Shown here: piece by piece, positions 2,511-10,670 of the stretch | Position numbering within the stretch: position 1 is the first letter of the stretch | Layout: the number at the start of each line of letters is the position of its first letter | Assembly (NCBI RefSeq): GCF_041477585.1 | Contig: NZ_JBGNYA010000001.1 | Location: forward strand, 1,116,001 to 1,180,000 | Origin: Halobellus sp. MBLA0158 | GTDB lineage: Archaea > Halobacteriota > Halobacteria > Halobacteriales > Haloferacaceae | DNA length: 64,000 bases | Direction: 5' to 3' | Program-made: the position numbers and the translations under genes | The notes under the pieces: generated by a model | The model's database searches: none | What the model saw: only the letters and a program-made list of their open reading frames with translations | Told to the model about the DNA's origin: nothing

Positions 2511-3215
2511 TCACACGAGCGCGAGGACGGCCGTGCTGATCGTGCTGACGACGGTCTCCCAGACGGAGAAGCCGGTCACGATCGAGAGCGCGGTGTCGAG
2601 GCCGAAGAAGGCAAAGAGCGCCGCCGAGGCGAAGTGGGCCTTCCGCATATCGACCCGGTGGGCGAAGGTGTGGAAGAAGTACGCGTTGGCGAGGCTGACG
2701 GGGATGATCGCGAGCATCTCGCCGACCCAGATCGCGGAGGTCGCGCCGTACTGGACGGCGAGTCCGATCGTGACGAGCTGGGTCTTGTCGCCGAACTCGC
2801 CGGTCACCATCATCACGAAGATCGGGACGAATCCGCCGAAGGAGCCCGACAGGCGGTCGATCGGCGCGGGGAGGTCGAGCGCCGCCAGGTCGGCGAAGCC
2901 GCCGTCGGTTTCGGTCGCCCCACTCTGTGGATTCGGCCCCGACGGCGCCGAGCGGTACAGGAGGACCGCGAACGTCAGGAAGAGCCCCGCGGTAATGGCG
3001 TCGAGGACGACCGGCGGGAGCGCCGACTGGAGCGCGCGCCCGAACAGGATCTCGAGGGCGGTCCACCCGGCGAACGCCGAGCCGGCGGCCGCGACCACGA
3101 CGAGCGGATTGTACCGCGTCGAGAGCCCCGCGATGATGAACTGGACCTTCTCGCCGGGCAGCACCGCAAGCTGTGCGATGAACGCGACGACCAGGATCTC
3201 GGCGTAGGTCGTCAC
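2511..3215 (-). CDS. TMEM165/GDT1 family divalent cation transporter
   Basis: A 234-residue membrane protein with two related halves of three helices joined by a long loop (about residues 95-125), the UPF0016/GDT1 architecture. The second half carries the hallmark EFGDKTQ; the first half has the degenerate counterpart LPGEKVQF. GDT1 proteins move Mn2+ and/or Ca2+ against H+; bacterial relatives export manganese. Its ATG overlaps the stop of the upstream DtxR/MntR-type regulator by 4 bp (ATGA, 3212-3215), so the two are translationally coupled. That pairing makes a metal-homeostasis role, most likely manganese, a sensible inference. The exact ion is not provable from sequence. Confidence 0.85.
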   Translation of the reverse strand: MTTYAEILVVAFIAQLAVLPGEKVQFIIAGLSTRYNPLVVVAAAGSAFAGWTALEILFGRALQSALPPVVLDAITAGLFLTFAVLLYRSAPSGPNPQSGATETDGGFADLAALDLPAPIDRLSGSFGGFVPIFVMMVTGEFGDKTQLVTIGLAVQYGATSAIWVGEMLAIIPVSLANAYFFHTFAHRVDMRKAHFASAALFAFFGLDTALSIVTGFSVWETVVSTISTAVLALV

Positions 3216-3916
3216 GCGTCGGTCACCTCAGCTGGATCGGTCGGGGCCGCCGCGTCGGCGACGGGTCGCACGTAGATCGCGTCCGCGACGGACTCCGGCA
3301 GGCTCTGTTCGCCCTCGGTTTCGGTCCGGACGGTGAGCATCCCGAACGGGGCGACGTCGACGATCTCCAGCTCCGTGCCGGGGGTCACGCCGGCGTCTTC
3401 GAGATACTCCAGTTCCTCCCTGTCGCGGTCGCTTACGCGGGAGACGACCACCCGATCGCCGACTTCGTGCGCCGAAAGCGCGGAGGCGCCGTCGTCCTCT
3501 ATCGGTGCCAGGTCGGCCGAGGGAATGGGGTCGCCGTGGGGGTCGACTACCGGGTCGTCGAGCGCCTCGGCGACGCGCCGCTCGAACTCCTCGCTGATGT
3601 GGTGTTCGAGGGCGTCGGCCTCGTCGTGGACCTCGCTCCAGGAGTAATCGAGGTGTTCGGCGAGGTACGCCTCCAGCAGCCGGTGGTGGCGGAGCACCTC
3701 CAGCGCCACGGTCTCGCCCTCTGGCGTCAGTTCGGCGCCCTTGTACTTCTCGCGGGCGACGAGGCCGCGCTCCTCCAGTTTGTCGAGCATGCTCGTCACC
3801 GTCGCCGGCGTCTTCTCCAGCGCGTCGGCGACGGCGGAGGTGGAGACCGGCGGCCCCGACCGGGTCTGAATCTGATAGATCGTCTTGAGATAGTCCTCCA
3901 TCACGTCGCTCAGCAT
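3212..3916 (-). CDS. DtxR/MntR-type metal-dependent transcriptional regulator with FeoA-like domain
   Basis: A 234-residue regulator. Residues 1-65 form a winged helix (MEDYLKTIYQIQ, then PATVTSMLDKLEERGLV). Residues about 70-125 form the helical metal-binding and dimer domain, with HH at 76-77 and the DALEHHISEEFE segment. Residues about 160-215 form a FeoA/SH3-like domain (VGDRVVVSRVSDRD, then LEIVDVAPFGMLTV). The family binds Mn2+ or Fe2+ and represses or activates metal transporters. It is the first gene of an operon with the GDT1 transporter. A 16-bp inverted repeat lies 8 bp before its start codon, between the TATA box and the ATG, suggesting autoregulation. Haloarchaeal relatives are named SirR, TroR or IdeR; I do not assign a symbol. 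Confidence 0.9.
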   Translation of the reverse strand: MLSDVMEDYLKTIYQIQTRSGPPVSTSAVADALEKTPATVTSMLDKLEERGLVAREKYKGAELTPEGETVALEVLRHHRLLEAYLAEHLDYSWSEVHDEADALEHHISEEFERRVAEALDDPVVDPHGDPIPSADLAPIEDDGASALSAHEVGDRVVVSRVSDRDREELEYLEDAGVTPGTELEIVDVAPFGMLTVRTETEGEQSLPESVADAIYVRPVADAAAPTDPAEVTDA

Positions 3917-3923
3917 ACTCCGA

Positions 3924-3939
3924 TTTAGACGACTCTAAA
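3924..3939 (-). promoter_or_regulatory. Operator-like inverted repeat in front of the metal regulator gene
   Basis: The sequence TTTAGA-CGAC-TCTAAA has perfect 6-bp arms and a 4-bp centre. It begins 8 bp upstream of the regulator ATG (3916) and sits just downstream of, and slightly overlapping, the TATA-like box on the minus strand. The position is right for steric block of initiation. It loosely resembles DtxR/MntR boxes (TTAGG-type half sites). Autoregulation by the adjacent product is inference. Confidence 0.5.
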
Positions 3940-4025: not shown

Positions 4026-5198
4026 TTAGATTCCTTTCCCCATCAGGTGGCTCCGGAGTACGTCTGCGGTTTTCGTCCCGGATTCGGTGTTGACGACGAC
4101 GACGTCGTCGCCGGAGCCGAGCGCGCCGTCGTCGGCGAGCGTCCCGGCGCCCGCGAGCGCGACGCCGCCGGCCGCGCCGACCTCCACGCCGGCCTCCTGG
4201 GCCGCGACGACCGCGCTCTCCAGGCTGTCGTCGTCGTCGACGGCGACGAACCCGCCGCCGGTCGCCTCGACGGCCGCGAGCGCCGCGGCCGCGCCCTTCG
4301 GCTCCGGAATCTCCAGCTCGCCGACGATCGTGTCCGGCGACTCCCAGGGCTCTACCGTCTCGTCTCCCCGCTCCGCGGCGGCGACGAGCGGCGCGCAGCC
4401 CGACGGCTGGACGGCGTAGACCGGCGGTAGCGCGTCGATCAGGCCGATCTCTCGGAGCTCGCGGAAGCCCTTCGCGACGCCCGCGACGACCTCGCCGGTC
4501 CCCGCGGGGACGACGACCGCGTCGGGGAGGTCCCACGACGCGGACTCCGCGATCTCGAAGGCGACCGTCTTGAGCCCGTCGTGGCGGTGGGGGTTGTCGA
4601 ACTCCTGGAGCGTGTACCACTTCGACTGCAACTGCTCGTGGAGGGCGGCCTCGGCGTCCGGGTAGCGGCCGCCCGCGATGCGCATCTCGCCGCCGTGGAC
4701 GTTGACCATCGCCTTGTTGGAGAACGGCGCGCGCGAGGGGACGAACGCGTACGAGCGGATCCCGGCCATCCCCGCGTAGGAGGCCGCCGACTGCCCCGCG
4801 TTCCCGGGCGTCGCGAGCGCTGCGAGGTCCGCGCCGGCCTCACGGGCCGCCGTCACGGCCGGCGCGAGGCCGCGGTCTAAGACCGTCCCCGTCGGGTTCC
4901 GGCTCTCGTCTTTGATCGACAGGCTCCCGAGGCCGGCGTCGTCGGCCAGCGTCGGCGCCGAGACCAGCGGCGTACCGCCCTCGCCGGCCGTGACCGGATT
5001 CGAGAAGGCGAGCAGGTCGGCGTACCGCCACATCGACCGCGGCGCGTCGGCGAGCGCGCCGCCGGTCCAGTCGACGGCGTCGTAGTCGTAACGCGCTTCC
5101 AGCCGCGCGTCGGCGTCGCTCTCGCCGGTCGCCGTCGCGTCGTACCGCTCGCCGGTCTCCACACAGAACAGACCGCGAAACGCCTCGCTCGTTCCCAT
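4026..5198 (-). CDS. Threonine-synthase-like fold-type II protein lacking the PLP lysine
   Basis: A 390-residue protein that clearly belongs to the threonine synthase branch of fold-type II PLP enzymes: KDESRNPTG at 96-104, the glycine-rich phosphate-binding TPGNAGQSAASYAG near 139-152, VVPAGTGEVVAGV and the C-terminal VNTESGTKT. In active enzymes the first motif continues as SFKDR, with Lys holding PLP. Here it reads TVLDR, so Leu107 replaces that lysine (codon at 4878-4880). The N-terminal Zn-ribbon typical of archaeal threonine synthases is also eroded to FCVETGERY. Either it is a pseudoenzyme or regulatory paralogue, or another residue anchors the cofactor. The frame is intact and well conserved, so it is not a decayed gene. 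It is transcribed alone, divergently from the FAD oxidoreductase. Its function should not be annotated as threonine synthase without proof. Confidence 0.8.
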   Translation of the reverse strand: MGTSEAFRGLFCVETGERYDATATGESDADARLEARYDYDAVDWTGGALADAPRSMWRYADLLAFSNPVTAGEGGTPLVSAPTLADDAGLGSLSIKDESRNPTGTVLDRGLAPAVTAAREAGADLAALATPGNAGQSAASYAGMAGIRSYAFVPSRAPFSNKAMVNVHGGEMRIAGGRYPDAEAALHEQLQSKWYTLQEFDNPHRHDGLKTVAFEIAESASWDLPDAVVVPAGTGEVVAGVAKGFRELREIGLIDALPPVYAVQPSGCAPLVAAAERGDETVEPWESPDTIVGELEIPEPKGAAAALAAVEATGGGFVAVDDDDSLESAVVAAQEAGVEVGAAGGVALAGAGTLADDGALGSGDDVVVVNTESGTKTADVLRSHLMGKGI

Positions 5199-5349: not shown

Positions 5350-6624
5350 ATGACTCAGGATTCCGTCGCGGTCGTCGGGGGCGGACTGGCGGGCCTCGTC
5401 GCGGCGCGGCGCCTCGCCCTGTCGGGCGCCGAGGTGACGCTGTTCGATCGCCGGTCGTCGGTGGGCGGTCGCGTCCGCACGGAGCACCGGGAGGGATTCA
5501 CGCTCGACCGGGGCTTTCAGGTCCTCTTCACGGCCTATCCGGCCGTCCAGCGCGAACTCGACCTCGGCGCGCTCAACCTCCGGTACTTCACCCCCGGCGC
5601 GGTCATCGCCCGCCCCGGATCGCGGTCGGTCCTCTCGGACCCCCTCCGGGACCTCCGGGCGCTCCCTGCGTCGGTTCGGAACGACGAGGTGACCCAGACC
5701 GACAAGGCGCGGACGCTGCTGCTCAGACAGCACGTCGGCACCCGGACCGAATCGGAAATCTTCCGGAGCGCCGACCGGTCGATCCGCTCGTACCTCCGCG
5801 AGTGGGGCTTCTCCGAGTCGTACATCGAGCACTTCGTCGCGCCCTTCTACGGTGGGATCACGCTCGATCGGTCGCTGTCGACCTCGAAACGCGTCTTCGA
5901 GTACACGTTCAAGGCGCTCTCCGATGGCCGGATCGCCGTGCCTGCCGCGGGGATGCAGGCGATCCCGGCGCAGTTGGCCGAGCGGGCGGAAGCGGCGGGC
6001 GCGACGATCCGCCGCGACGCCCGCGTTCGCGCGGTGACCGACCACGGCGACGGCGCCACGGTCGAGACCGAATCGGAGGCGCTCGACGTCGACGCGGTCG
6101 TGGTCGCCACCGATCCGAAGGAGGCGCGGCGGCTCACGGGCGTCGACGACGTGCCCACCGACGCCCGCAGTTGCGTGACGCAGCACTACCGGCTGCCCGA
6201 AGGCGTCGCCCCGACGACGCGGCGGAAGCTGCTTCTCAACGCCGCCGATCCGTCGCCGAACACGATCGTGCCGATGTCCGAGGTCGCGCCCGAGTACGTG
6301 CCCGAGGGCGAGGCGCTGGTCAACGCGACGTTCCTCGGCGAGGCGGCGCTCGACCGCGACGCCGACGCCCTCGCCGAGGAGACGCGGCTGACGCTGGAGG
6401 CGTGGTACCCCGACCACGACTTCTCCGAGCTGGAGCCGGTCCGGACCCACTGGATCGAGTTCGCGCAGTTCGACCAGCCGCCGGGCGTCCACGAGACGCT
6501 GCCCGGGACGCGGGCGCCCGGCGGGCGGACGTACCTGGCGGGCGACTACACCGCCTGGTCGTCGATCCAGGGGGCGATGCGGAGCGGCCGCGAGGCGGCG
6601 CGGGCGGTCGAGCGCGACCTCTGA
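5350..6624 (+). CDS. FAD-dependent amine oxidase/phytoene desaturase-like oxidoreductase
   Basis: A 424-residue flavoprotein. The N-terminus has the dinucleotide-binding fold VVGGGLAGLVAARRL followed by the acidic strand end (TLFDRR) and the GGR motif (VGGRVRTE). The C-terminus has the second FAD motif (YLAGDYTAWSSIQGAMRSG). This layout is that of the amine oxidase, protoporphyrinogen oxidase and carotenoid desaturase superfamily; the substrate is unknown. An in-frame extension reaches back to 5203, but the ATG at 5350 places the Rossmann motif right after the start, as usual. It is divergent from the threonine-synthase-like gene, with a shared 151-bp intergenic region. No carotenoid genes are beside it, so a carotenoid role is only one option. 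Confidence 0.8.
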   Translation: MTQDSVAVVGGGLAGLVAARRLALSGAEVTLFDRRSSVGGRVRTEHREGFTLDRGFQVLFTAYPAVQRELDLGALNLRYFTPGAVIARPGSRSVLSDPLRDLRALPASVRNDEVTQTDKARTLLLRQHVGTRTESEIFRSADRSIRSYLREWGFSESYIEHFVAPFYGGITLDRSLSTSKRVFEYTFKALSDGRIAVPAAGMQAIPAQLAERAEAAGATIRRDARVRAVTDHGDGATVETESEALDVDAVVVATDPKEARRLTGVDDVPTDARSCVTQHYRLPEGVAPTTRRKLLLNAADPSPNTIVPMSEVAPEYVPEGEALVNATFLGEAALDRDADALAEETRLTLEAWYPDHDFSELEPVRTHWIEFAQFDQPPGVHETLPGTRAPGGRTYLAGDYTAWSSIQGAMRSGREAARAVERDL

Positions 6625-6683: not shown

Positions 6684-7379
6684 TCAGAGCAGTTGCCGGA
6701 ACTCCCGCAGCGGCGGGAACGCGAGCGCTTCCCCGGCGTCGGCGTCGTAGACGATCGGTCGGGCGCCGTCCAGCCGATCGAGGAGCGGCGACTGGAGGTC
6801 CGACCCGCGCGCGTCGTTGACCTCGACGCCCGCGGCGGCGCGGGAGAACGCCGGCAGCATCAGCACGTCGGCGCCGTGGTGGGCGTCCGGCGCGTCGAGG
6901 AAGCAGGGTCGGCGGTGTCCCTCGATCGCGATCGCCGGGTGGTCGTGGCCGATCACGTATCGGTCGGCGTCGGTCTCCGGCCGCTCGTGCCCGTGACAGA
7001 CGACGACCCGCGGGTCCTCGGAGACGACGTAGGCGTCACGGACGTCGTCGCGGACGCGGTCGAGCGCGGCGTCGTGATTCCCGCGGACGAACACCGGCTC
7101 GCTCCCCGCGTCGCGGCAGGCCCCAGCGAGCTCGGCGACCGTCTCGCGGCTCCGCTCGGTGACGGTCCCGAACCGGTGGAGCACGTCGCCGGCGAACACG
7201 ACGGTCCCCGGGTCGAACGCCGCGAGGCGCGCGTCGAGCCGGTCCCGCAGGTCCCGCCGCTCGCCGAGGGGGAACGCGACGTCCGAAGCCGACGCGCGGC
7301 CCACGTGGAGGTCCGCGACGACGAGCGCGTCCGCGTCCGGGAGGAAGACGCTTCGCTCCCGGTACTCGATCGTGTCCAC
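6684..7379 (-). CDS. Calcineurin-like metallophosphoesterase
   Basis: A 231-residue cytoplasmic phosphoesterase with all five metal-binding blocks in order: DLHVG (22-26), GDVLH near 64-68, GNHD near 100-103, CHGH near 128-131 and GHDHP near 144-148. This arrangement matches the small archaeal SbcD/Mre11-related phosphoesterase group, which lacks the Mre11 capping domain. Substrate is unknown. The gene is convergent with the FAD oxidoreductase gene (59 bp between stops) and has no obvious operon partner. Confidence 0.85.
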   Translation of the reverse strand: MDTIEYRERSVFLPDADALVVADLHVGRASASDVAFPLGERRDLRDRLDARLAAFDPGTVVFAGDVLHRFGTVTERSRETVAELAGACRDAGSEPVFVRGNHDAALDRVRDDVRDAYVVSEDPRVVVCHGHERPETDADRYVIGHDHPAIAIEGHRRPCFLDAPDAHHGADVLMLPAFSRAAAGVEVNDARGSDLQSPLLDRLDGARPIVYDADAGEALAFPPLREFRQLL

Positions 7380-7584
7380 GGCCGGTCTTGGGCGCCCGTC
7401 AGCAAGTCAGTACCGGCACGTCGCGGACGCTATGCTCTCGGCGTCGCGGCGGCTATCGGTGTGGCGAACAGGCGACACGGACCGGACTGAGGCCCGGTGG
7501 GGCCGCGCGGCGCGGTGTGTCGCACACCCGCTGACGCGCCGCGGCCGCGACTACGTCACGGGCGGTCTGGCCGCCTCTCGGTAT

Positions 7585-7589
7585 AAAAA
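7585..7589 (-). terminator. Oligo-T terminator after the J-protein gene
   Basis: On the minus strand the stop codon at 7592-7594 is followed within three bases by CGTTTTTATACC. A short T-run right after a stop is the usual haloarchaeal termination signal. The same bases look like a plus-strand TATA box, but no plus-strand gene follows. Confidence 0.45.
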
Positions 7590-7591
7590 CG

Positions 7592-8194
7592 TCAGTCGCT
7601 GGCGTGTTCCCTGGCGGTCGCGTACGCCTCTTGCAGCCGCTTGAACTCGGCCTCCGAGCCGCCGTGGTCGGGGTGGACGGACAGCACGCGGTCGCGGTAG
7701 GCGTCTCGGACCTCCTCGACCGTCGCCGGCCGCGAGACGCCGAGGTGCTCGAAGGCGTCCTGGACCGGGTTCGATCGGTCTGATTCCGACTCGACGCCGA
7801 CGGTCGGCACCTCGAAGGGGAGCCGCCGGCCGAGCGCGCGGACCGGCATCTCGTGTTCGCAGAGTACCGTGTAGGTCCCGGCGCGTTCGAGCCGGAAGTA
7901 CGCCTGCGCGTCGAAGGTGAGCGCGACGTCCCGCTGGGGCAGGTAGAACTCGACGGTCTCGCCGCCGATCTCGTAGTCCTCCGCGAACGGCTCGTCGATG
8001 TCGCGGAGGTACCGCTGGATCTCCGCGCGGCGGCGGGCCGACCCGTCGATGCGTTCGGCCCTGGGCGCCGGCTCGTCGGGGAACAGGCGGCCGCCGACGA
8101 GGAACACGCCCGCGGCGATCACGGAGGCCACGCCGCCGCCGAGCAGCCCGAAGACGAGCCACGGCGGCAGCAGCGAAACCCACTCCGGAAGCAC
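7592..8194 (-). CDS. Membrane-anchored J-domain protein (C-terminal DnaJ domain)
   Basis: A 200-residue protein starting at GTG 8194. An N-terminal hydrophobic segment (about residues 6-32, PPWLVFGLLGGG onward) is followed by a soluble region of unknown fold. The C-terminus is a J domain with the catalytic HPD in SVHPDHGG, so it should stimulate a DnaK-type ATPase at the membrane. The open frame extends to 8464, but that would overlap ppsA and its promoter on the other strand; the GTG has a TTCTTTAGG box about 26 nt upstream. GTG 8248 is an alternative start. A J domain at the C-terminal end, behind a membrane anchor, differs from classical DnaJ. Confidence 0.75.
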   Translation of the reverse strand: MLPEWVSLLPPWLVFGLLGGGVASVIAAGVFLVGGRLFPDEPAPRAERIDGSARRRAEIQRYLRDIDEPFAEDYEIGGETVEFYLPQRDVALTFDAQAYFRLERAGTYTVLCEHEMPVRALGRRLPFEVPTVGVESESDRSNPVQDAFEHLGVSRPATVEEVRDAYRDRVLSVHPDHGGSEAEFKRLQEAYATAREHASD

Positions 8195-8347
8195 AGTCGG
8201 ATCGTGGGGTGCGGTCCTAAAGAACTTCTCGCCTGTGCCATCCGTCACGGGGGCTTCGGGTCGTCTCGGGGACCGATCGAGCCGCCCGGCGGGAATTGAG
8301 TACTCGGAGCCGAGTTTGTTTAATTCACCGTTGCACGCTTCGGAAAG

Positions 8348-8357
8348 TACTTTAGGG
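8348..8357 (+). promoter_or_regulatory. TATA box of ppsA
   Basis: TACTTTAGGG is centred about 29 nt before the ppsA ATG (8382), consistent with leaderless transcription. The 187-bp region 8195-8381 is shared with the divergent J-protein gene, whose own box (TTCTTTAGG, minus strand) is at 8216-8224. Confidence 0.5.
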
Positions 8358-8381
8358 ATATCTGCGGAATTGCACACACTG

Positions 8382-10670
8382 ATGGCTGTAGCTTGGCTGG
8401 ACGACGTGCGGTCCACCGACGTCGATAGCGTCGGCGGGAAGGGGGCTTCGCTGGGCGAACTCACCGCCGCGGGGCTGCCCGTCCCGTCGGGGTTCGTCGT
8501 GACCGCCGGTACCTATCGGGAGTTCATCGAGGACGCCGGCATCGACGAGGAGCTGTTTTCCGCCGTCGACGTCGACCACGAGGACACCGAGGCGCTGCGC
8601 GAGGCACACGAGCGCGCACACGAACTGATTATGGAGACCCCGGTGCCGGACGACGTCCGCGAGGAGATCATCGCGGCGTACCGGGACCTCGGTGACGGCG
8701 AGCGGTTCGTCGCCGTCCGCTCGTCGGCGACCGCCGAGGACCTCCCGGACGCCTCCTTCGCGGGCCAACAGGAGACGTTCCTGAACGTCCGGGAGGACGC
8801 GCTGGTCGAGCGCGTCAAGGAGTGCTGGGCGTCGCTCTTCTCCCAGCGCGCGATCTACTACCGGAACCGCCAGGGCTTCCCCCACGAGAAGGTCGACATC
8901 GCGGTCGTCGTCCAGGAGATGGTCGACGCCGAGAAGTCCGGCGTCCTCTTCACCTCTCACCCCTCGACGGGCGACCCCCAGATCATCATCGAGGCCGCCT
9001 GGGGCCTCGGCGAGGCCGTCGTCTCCGGATCGGTCTCTCCCGACAACTACGTGATCGACCGCGAGACGGGCGAGGTGGAGACGATCACCGTCGCCGACAA
9101 GAAGACGATGATGATCAAAGACGAGGAGACCGGCGAGACCATCGAGACCGAGGTCCCCGACGACAAGCGGAGCGTCCGCGTCCTCGAAGACGGAGAGATC
9201 GACGAGCTCATCGAGCTCGGCGAGCGCGTCGAGGACCACTACGGCACGCCCCAGGACGTCGAGTGGGCGGTCCACGAGGGCGAGATCTATATGCTCCAGT
9301 CGCGCCCGATCACCACCATCGACGACGAGGACGAGGCGGCCGCCGACGTCGAGGCCGCGGGCGCGGACGGCGGCACCGAGGCCGACAGCGCGGACTCCGG
9401 CGACGTGCTCCTCCGCGGGCTCGGCTCCAGCCCCGGAATCGCCTCCGGCGAGGTCCGGATCGTCACGAAGCTCGACCACCTCGACCAGGTCGGCGAGGGC
9501 GACATCATCGTCACGGAGATGACGATGCCCGACATGGTGCCCGCGATGAAGCGCGCGGCCGGGATCGTCACCGACGAGGGCGGGATGACCTCCCACGCCG
9601 CCATCGTCTCCCGCGAGCTCGGCGTCCCCGCGGTCGTCGGCGCCGGCTCGGCGACCCGCGACCTCGAAGACGGCCAGCTCATCACCATCGACGGCGACAA
9701 GGGGACCATCCGTGAAGGCACAGAGCCCGAGGAAGAAGAGACCGAGCCGATCGAGGACGCGCGCCCGAAGACGCCCGTGAAGCCGATGACCGCCACCGAA
9801 GTGAAGGTGAACGTCTCGATCCCCGAGGCCGCAGAGCGCGCGGCCGCGACGGGCGCCGACGGGGTCGGCCTCCTCCGGACGGAGCACATGGTGCTGTCGC
9901 TCGGCAAGACGCCGACGAAGTACATCGCCGACAACGGCGAGCGCGCCTACGTCGACGAGCTCGTCGACGGCATCCGCACCGCCGCCGAGGAGTTCTACCC
10001 GCGGCCGGTCCGCGTCCGGACGCTCGATGCGCCCACCGACGAGTTCCGGCAGCTGGAGGGCGGCGACGACGAGCCCAGAGAGCACAACCCGATGCTCGGC
10101 TACCGCGGCATCCGGCGCTCGCTGGACAACCCCGACCTCTTCAAGCACGAACTGGAGGCGTTCCGCCGGATCTTCGATATGGGCTACGACAACGTCGAGG
10201 TGATGTTCCCCTTGGTCAACGACGCCGAGGACGTCGCCCGCGCCCGGAACCTGATGAAACAGGCCGGCGTCGACCCCGAAAAGCGGACCTGGGGCGTGAT
10301 GGTCGAGACGCCCGCCGCCGCGCTCGAAGTCGAGTCGATGGCCCAGGAGGGCATCGACTTCGTCTCCTTCGGGACGAACGACCTCACGCAGTACACCCTC
10401 GCGGTCGACCGCAACAACGAGCGCGTCGCCGACCGCTTCGACGAGCTTCATCCCGCGGTCCTGTCGCTCATCGGCGACACCATCGAGACGTGCCGCGAGC
10501 TCGGCGTGAAGACGAGCATCTGCGGGCAGGCCGGCTCGAAGCCGCAGATGGTCCAGTTCCTCGTCGAGAAGGGCGTCTCCTCGGTGTCGGCCAACATCGA
10601 CGCCGTCCGCGACGTCCAACACGAGGTAAAGCGGGTCGAACAGCGGCTCATCCTCGATTCGGTCCGCTGA
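8382..10670 (+). CDS. ppsA: Phosphoenolpyruvate synthase (pyruvate, water dikinase)
   Basis: A 762-residue enzyme converting pyruvate and ATP to PEP, AMP and phosphate for gluconeogenesis. The N-terminal ATP-grasp/PPDK domain covers about residues 1-330 (GGKGASLGELTAAGLPVPSGF, with VRSSATAEDLPDASFAGQ). The central swivelling domain contains the phosphorylated His405 in GGMTSHAAIVSREL. The C-terminal PEP-binding TIM barrel begins near 450 (GVGLLRTEHM, VMVETPAAALE, FGTNDLTQYTL) and includes the catalytic Cys motif SICGQAGSK. An acidic linker (about 308-345) sits before the swivel domain. The frame is open upstream to 7998, but the ATG at 8382 fits both the family start and the TATA box. Confidence 0.95.
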   Translation: MAVAWLDDVRSTDVDSVGGKGASLGELTAAGLPVPSGFVVTAGTYREFIEDAGIDEELFSAVDVDHEDTEALREAHERAHELIMETPVPDDVREEIIAAYRDLGDGERFVAVRSSATAEDLPDASFAGQQETFLNVREDALVERVKECWASLFSQRAIYYRNRQGFPHEKVDIAVVVQEMVDAEKSGVLFTSHPSTGDPQIIIEAAWGLGEAVVSGSVSPDNYVIDRETGEVETITVADKKTMMIKDEETGETIETEVPDDKRSVRVLEDGEIDELIELGERVEDHYGTPQDVEWAVHEGEIYMLQSRPITTIDDEDEAAADVEAAGADGGTEADSADSGDVLLRGLGSSPGIASGEVRIVTKLDHLDQVGEGDIIVTEMTMPDMVPAMKRAAGIVTDEGGMTSHAAIVSRELGVPAVVGAGSATRDLEDGQLITIDGDKGTIREGTEPEEEETEPIEDARPKTPVKPMTATEVKVNVSIPEAAERAAATGADGVGLLRTEHMVLSLGKTPTKYIADNGERAYVDELVDGIRTAAEEFYPRPVRVRTLDAPTDEFRQLEGGDDEPREHNPMLGYRGIRRSLDNPDLFKHELEAFRRIFDMGYDNVEVMFPLVNDAEDVARARNLMKQAGVDPEKRTWGVMVETPAAALEVESMAQEGIDFVSFGTNDLTQYTLAVDRNNERVADRFDELHPAVLSLIGDTIETCRELGVKTSICGQAGSKPQMVQFLVEKGVSSVSANIDAVRDVQHEVKRVEQRLILDSVR

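Follow-up and report, generated by a model that had tools for sequence, protein, structure and literature searches.

Repeated loss of the PLP lysine in a haloarchaeal threonine-synthase-like family points to a probable retained pseudoenzyme

The window, a 64,000-nt stretch of the Halobellus sp. MBLA0158 genome, encodes a threonine-synthase-like protein with leucine at the position of the PLP Schiff-base lysine. We regard it as probably a retained, PLP-free pseudoenzyme of the threonine-synthase-like fold-type II PLP family, i.e., a non-catalytic ligand-binding or regulatory protein. The sequence-only reading had proposed a retained pseudoenzyme, and three results favor this view: the lysine is missing throughout a clade, the genome has a true thrC at another site, and purifying selection acts on the gene. 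Proteins of this family (group A, below) without the lysine combine a lost catalytic residue with an intact and constrained gene, as is expected of a pseudoenzyme.

A threonine-synthase-like gene with leucine at the lysine position

The coding sequence (positions 4026 to 5198, minus strand), recognized from the ORF list, Pfam, and syntenic orthologues, starts with ATG and encodes 390 amino acids with zero internal stops. The motif KDESRNPTGTVLDRG (residues 96 to 110; 4869 to 4913, minus strand) contains Leu107 (TTA codon at 4878 to 4880, minus strand) in place of the Schiff-base lysine of threonine synthase, and two paralogues in the same genome carry lysine at this site, within NPTGSFKDRG and FPTGSFKDRG. 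Both the replacement and the unbroken frame had been noticed in the sequence-only reading; alignment with these paralogues and with family orthologues agrees with the former, and the intact 390-residue ORF with the latter. Pocket roles were assigned to positions by alignment and from general knowledge of ThrC. The loop GTGEVVAG (residues 233 to 240; 4479 to 4502, minus strand) corresponds to GGGVGLVG, the glycine-rich PLP-phosphate loop of lysine-bearing orthologues, and NTES (residues 370 to 373; 4080 to 4091, minus strand) aligns with NTG of the lysine-bearing forms, at a site that we take, on the same grounds, to adjoin the expected pyridine-ring contact.

Profile searches placed the protein in the family but below the curated thresholds. 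Pfam PF00291 (PALP, fold-type II) matched it with 217 bits, whereas its scores with NF006050 (278.6 bits; cutoff, 303) and TIGR00260 (126.3 bits; cutoff, 167.1) fell short. A lysine-less Haloferax protein also stayed under the NF006050 cutoff (297 bits), and lysine-bearing orthologues from the same locus in Halobacterium and Halostella exceeded it (374 to 382 bits). The AF2 model (pLDDT 92; pTM 0.93) predicts a threonine-synthase fold: comparison with solved threonine synthases, for which Foldseek was also run, gave Z scores of 41 to 48 over nearly the whole chain, with 21 to 31% identity for those of 45 to 48; the plant threonine synthase 2c2b was the top match (Z 47.7), and 1v7c had Z 45.7.

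A true, lysine-bearing thrC was sought elsewhere in the genome, as had been suggested earlier, and is present (L002), scoring 294 bits with TIGR00260 against the cutoff of 167. The same genome holds a third threonine-synthase-like paralogue (L003:1486-2592), which bears the lysine and scores below all NCBIfam cutoffs. In Haloferax volcanii, a thrC3 insertion mutant requires Gly/Ser/Thr (PMC4300041); hence, no other gene of this species covers that step.

Residue 107 across haloarchaea and the shared locus

Orthologues of the window protein, defined as group A by N166, R178, E296, and an RSHLM-like C-terminal end, were present in about 289 of 292 sampled class-Halobacteria genomes, as read from the best E values; three genomes (G250, G285, and G336) gave only ThrC-like matches. 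Beyond the class, a phylum-level search showed no group A member, its best matches falling to about 342 bits. Among 148 Haloferacaceae genomes, 145 matched immediately, and one of the remaining three was found later (G035, L114). The window's nearest named relative shares 84% identity, in keeping with a probable Halobellus origin. The orthologues read from this family (28 genera) have mostly Leu at position 107, otherwise Phe, Tyr, His, Ile, Val, or Thr, and Lys107 in none. The replacement, which an earlier check had asked to be traced in a clade, therefore spans Haloferacaceae, including eleven Haloferax species other than H. volcanii, all without the lysine. Lys107 is kept in other families (Halobacterium, Halostella, Halorarius, Haloarchaeobius, Halorubellus, and many Natrialbaceae), in which the members without it carry Ala, Thr, Arg, Val, Gly, Gln, or Asn. 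The codon for Leu107 varies with the genome (CTC, CTG, CTT, TTG, or TTA), so the residue is conserved and not the codon; TTA, used in the window only, was discarded as a conserved feature. A paralogous group B (L061 to L067 and L138), distinguished from group A by N166, has lysine in every copy read. In the window's genome group B was not found, and the next matches there share 35% identity.

A sequencing error or a decaying pseudogene is an extremely improbable source of Leu107. One relative (G109, L036) is interrupted by three stops, two TGA and one TAA, and is itself either a pseudogene or affected by sequencing errors. Against this stand family-wide replacement with varied codons and intact frames, which led us to reject sequencing error, and the intact frames together with dN/dS values of 0.12 to 0.26, which led us to reject pseudogene decay. 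The sequence-only reading had held that lysine in orthologues would betray an error here; lysine-bearing orthologues occur only in other families and speak instead of repeated loss.

The number of losses was estimated from 101 proteins, on a tree that left out the motif columns. This tree requires a minimum of six changes between lysine and other residues; the exact number is uncertain given a quick search and long branches. Placing the 66 lysine-less proteins in a single clade was rejected (delta lnL 363; p-AU 5e-6), and with it a single loss of lysine. The tree suggests losses in a large clade with Haloferacaceae, within Natrialbaceae, and beside Halostella. Four proteins (L096, L223, L119, and L225) bear lysine among lysine-less relatives while having a broken phosphate loop and lacking the usual Phe106, and this broken loop fits drift at site 107. 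A second reading, tentative and with well under even chances in our estimate, is that group A function was always PLP independent, even in lysine-bearing members, which would make the group a new ligand-binding or regulatory class on the threonine-synthase fold. A function of this kind from the start would have allowed the lysine to be lost, and regained by drift, several times.

The genomic context connects both forms. On the minus strand, conserved neighbors of the window gene are a presumed glycerol-1-phosphate dehydrogenase-like gene (604 to 1650), a LysE/LeuE-like exporter gene (1743 to 2504), and a gene for what we take to be a UPF0016-like membrane protein (2511 to 3215; no NCBIfam match). 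They are accompanied by a DtxR/MntR-family regulator gene (3212 to 3916, minus strand), whose product is SirR in H. volcanii (PMC11349517), and by a divergent gene for a CrtI-like FAD oxidoreductase (5350 to 6624, plus strand), the counterpart of HVO_0817 (PMC4300041). Lysine-bearing and lysine-less members share the order LysE, UPF0016, DtxR, and target, with the divergent CrtI-like oxidoreductase gene, and are therefore the same gene rather than paralogues. Halostella pelagica (Lys; L216) and its close relative QS_9_68_17 (Asn; L215, from a metagenome bin) are one such pair, and in Natrialbaceae the neighborhood of the group A gene is mostly different. Beyond the FAD oxidoreductase gene, which they adjoin across haloarchaeal families, lie a PdeM/SbcD-related phosphoesterase gene and a DnaJ-like gene (6684 to 8464).

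A perfect palindrome, TTTAGAcgacTCTAAA, occupies positions 3924 to 3939 just upstream of the DtxR/SirR start, and the equivalent place in other Halobellus and in Haloferax, Halobacterium, Haloarchaeobius, and Halostella has a box resembling WTTAGANNNNTCTAAW. The palindrome is probably a SirR autoregulatory operator. We are unsure whether the group A gene is cotranscribed with the regulator gene, because sirR seems to own a conserved operator between the two. The named flanking genes in H. volcanii are HVO_0817 (PMC4300041) and HVO_0819, encoding SirR (PMC11349517), and from the order FAD oxidoreductase-target-SirR we infer that the counterpart there is HVO_0818, which should be the lysine-less form.

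Conserved and decaying parts of the protein

Conservation was counted over 94 group A proteins, 28 with and 66 without the lysine. The phosphate loop decays along with it: Gly234 is kept in 26/28 lysine-bearing versus 5/66 lysine-less proteins, Gly237 in 28/28 versus 16/66, and Gly372, of the C-terminal NTG, in 24/28 versus 11/66. This association between loop decay and lysine is partly phylogenetic, and an independent-pairs test had too few pairs for significance. Terminal branches are longer in lysine-less proteins (median, 0.23 versus 0.08). About 45 positions are nonetheless at least 97% conserved whatever residue 107 is, among them R156, K162, H168, R178, C268, P288, D289, E296, R382, S383, and M386, and N166, R178, R205, and E296 are invariant in 94/94. 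The segment NKAMVNVHGGEM (residues 161 to 172; 4683 to 4718, minus strand) hardly varies within group A, whether or not Lys107 is present; PDTIVGELE (residues 288 to 296; 4311 to 4337, minus strand) contains the group A-specific P288, D289, G293, and E296; and RSHLM (residues 382 to 386; 4041 to 4055, minus strand) is a C-terminal group A signature with no counterpart in true threonine synthases. The dN/dS values were 0.12 in Haloferax, 0.18 in Halobellus, and 0.26 in Halorubrum, close to those of the flanking genes: purifying selection acts on the group A gene.

The N-terminal zinc ribbon (residues 10 to 36; 5091 to 5171, minus strand) survives as a remnant with one of four cysteines, in line with the earlier description of it as degenerate and as in the nearest relatives. 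Its loss is confined to some clades, the window's among them. Because 45/66 lysine-less proteins (and 26/28 lysine-bearing ones) still have the CxxC...CxxC ribbon, its loss is an event separate from and later than that of the lysine.

Could the protein hold PLP noncovalently and still catalyze a PLP reaction, either by way of a free external aldimine or with another lysine (K96, K162, or K210) standing in for Lys107? Fold-type II enzymes with a mutated lysine can still hold PLP external aldimines, which counts against a PLP-free reading; moreover, the three lysines are retained in 92 to 98% of lysine-less proteins, which in part also keep N133 (48/66) and T371 (42/66). However, the same lysines are equally present in lysine-bearing forms, so none has migrated, and 61/66 lysine-less proteins differ at position 234 of the phosphate loop, which in Haloferacaceae contains Glu. 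We consider such PLP-dependent catalysis very unlikely. Another lysine serving as the Schiff base, which would have spoken against the earlier interpretation, was searched for in the group A alignment as a lysine specific to lysine-less proteins and was not found.

That the former PLP cleft performs new chemistry, binding a substrate without PLP and using the acidic E236, gained in the loop, with the invariant H168, R178, and E294/E296, is unlikely. E236, E294, and E296 are invariant in Haloferacaceae, so the site there is reorganized rather than random. Outside this family, however, most lysine-less proteins have different loops and do not share E236 and E294, and one new mechanism would thus not explain all losses.

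Rather unlikely, too, is a non-catalytic partner subunit that stabilizes or tunes true ThrC or the L003-type paralogue, both lysine bearing, as LCB1 does for LCB2. A candidate partner exists in the window's genome in ThrC (L002), and LCB1/SPTLC1 of serine palmitoyltransferase, which is without the PLP lysine, provides a precedent (PMC3794620). Conversely, no paralogue was seen beside the gene, and the absence from this genome of group B, the closest lysine paralogue, rules it out as an obligate partner.

A retained pseudoenzyme would accommodate these patterns as follows. The ancestor would have been a haloarchaeal threonine synthase paralogue that had both Lys107 and a glycine-rich phosphate loop. 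The lysine was then lost in place in at least three lineages and the loop eroded too, so that PLP is most likely no longer bound. The gene itself has hardly ever been lost and remains under purifying selection, which implies that the selected function needs no PLP lysine. The old two-domain cleft retains the ThrC-type arginine R205, N101/T103, G132, and the near-invariant R156, K162, and R178 and would still bind a small anionic metabolite. The family-specific surface (NKAMVNVHGG, PDTxxGxxE, and C-terminal RSHLM) would signal to a partner whether the ligand is bound, the outcome being a non-catalytic sensor or regulatory protein. Retention of R205, R156, K162, R178, and this surface is the reason for favoring an anionic ligand and a regulator, and the putative sensor role takes these conserved residues as its basis.

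Implications and comparison with known systems

As the sequence-only reading anticipated, homology misannotates this gene: a near-universal haloarchaeal core gene is labeled threonine synthase, although Haloferacaceae and parts of several other families are without the required residue. It should be left out of the threonine synthases in automated annotation and in metabolic models. Repeated in-place loss of the PLP lysine under purifying selection amounts to a natural experiment in turning an enzyme fold into a non-enzyme, and the model organism H. volcanii, a likely lysine-less carrier (HVO_0818), allows direct testing. Our search of openly accessible literature found no publication on a lysine-less threonine-synthase family or on HVO_0818.

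The window protein resembles ThrC (TIGR00260; PDB 1v7c, 6nmx, and 2c2b) in its predicted whole-chain fold, in NPTG..DRG and the GN loop, and in R205, which matches the arginine of NP.R.EG.KT; it differs in lacking the Schiff-base lysine, in having GTGEVV instead of GGGVGL as the phosphate loop, and in scoring below the curated cutoff. The NF006050 (PRK08197) "threonine synthase" family takes in lysine-bearing group A proteins and group B paralogues. Its Halobacterium and Halostella members are direct orthologues of the window gene at the same locus, whereas the window and Haloferax lysine-less proteins fall under its cutoff. LCB1 has a PLP fold different from that of the window protein. Pseudoenzymes as such are already known, and LCB1/SPTLC1 is one example: like the window protein, it is a PLP-family homologue without the PLP lysine that has been retained by selection (PMC3794620), but LCB1 is a known heterodimer partner, a role that would be putative for the window protein.
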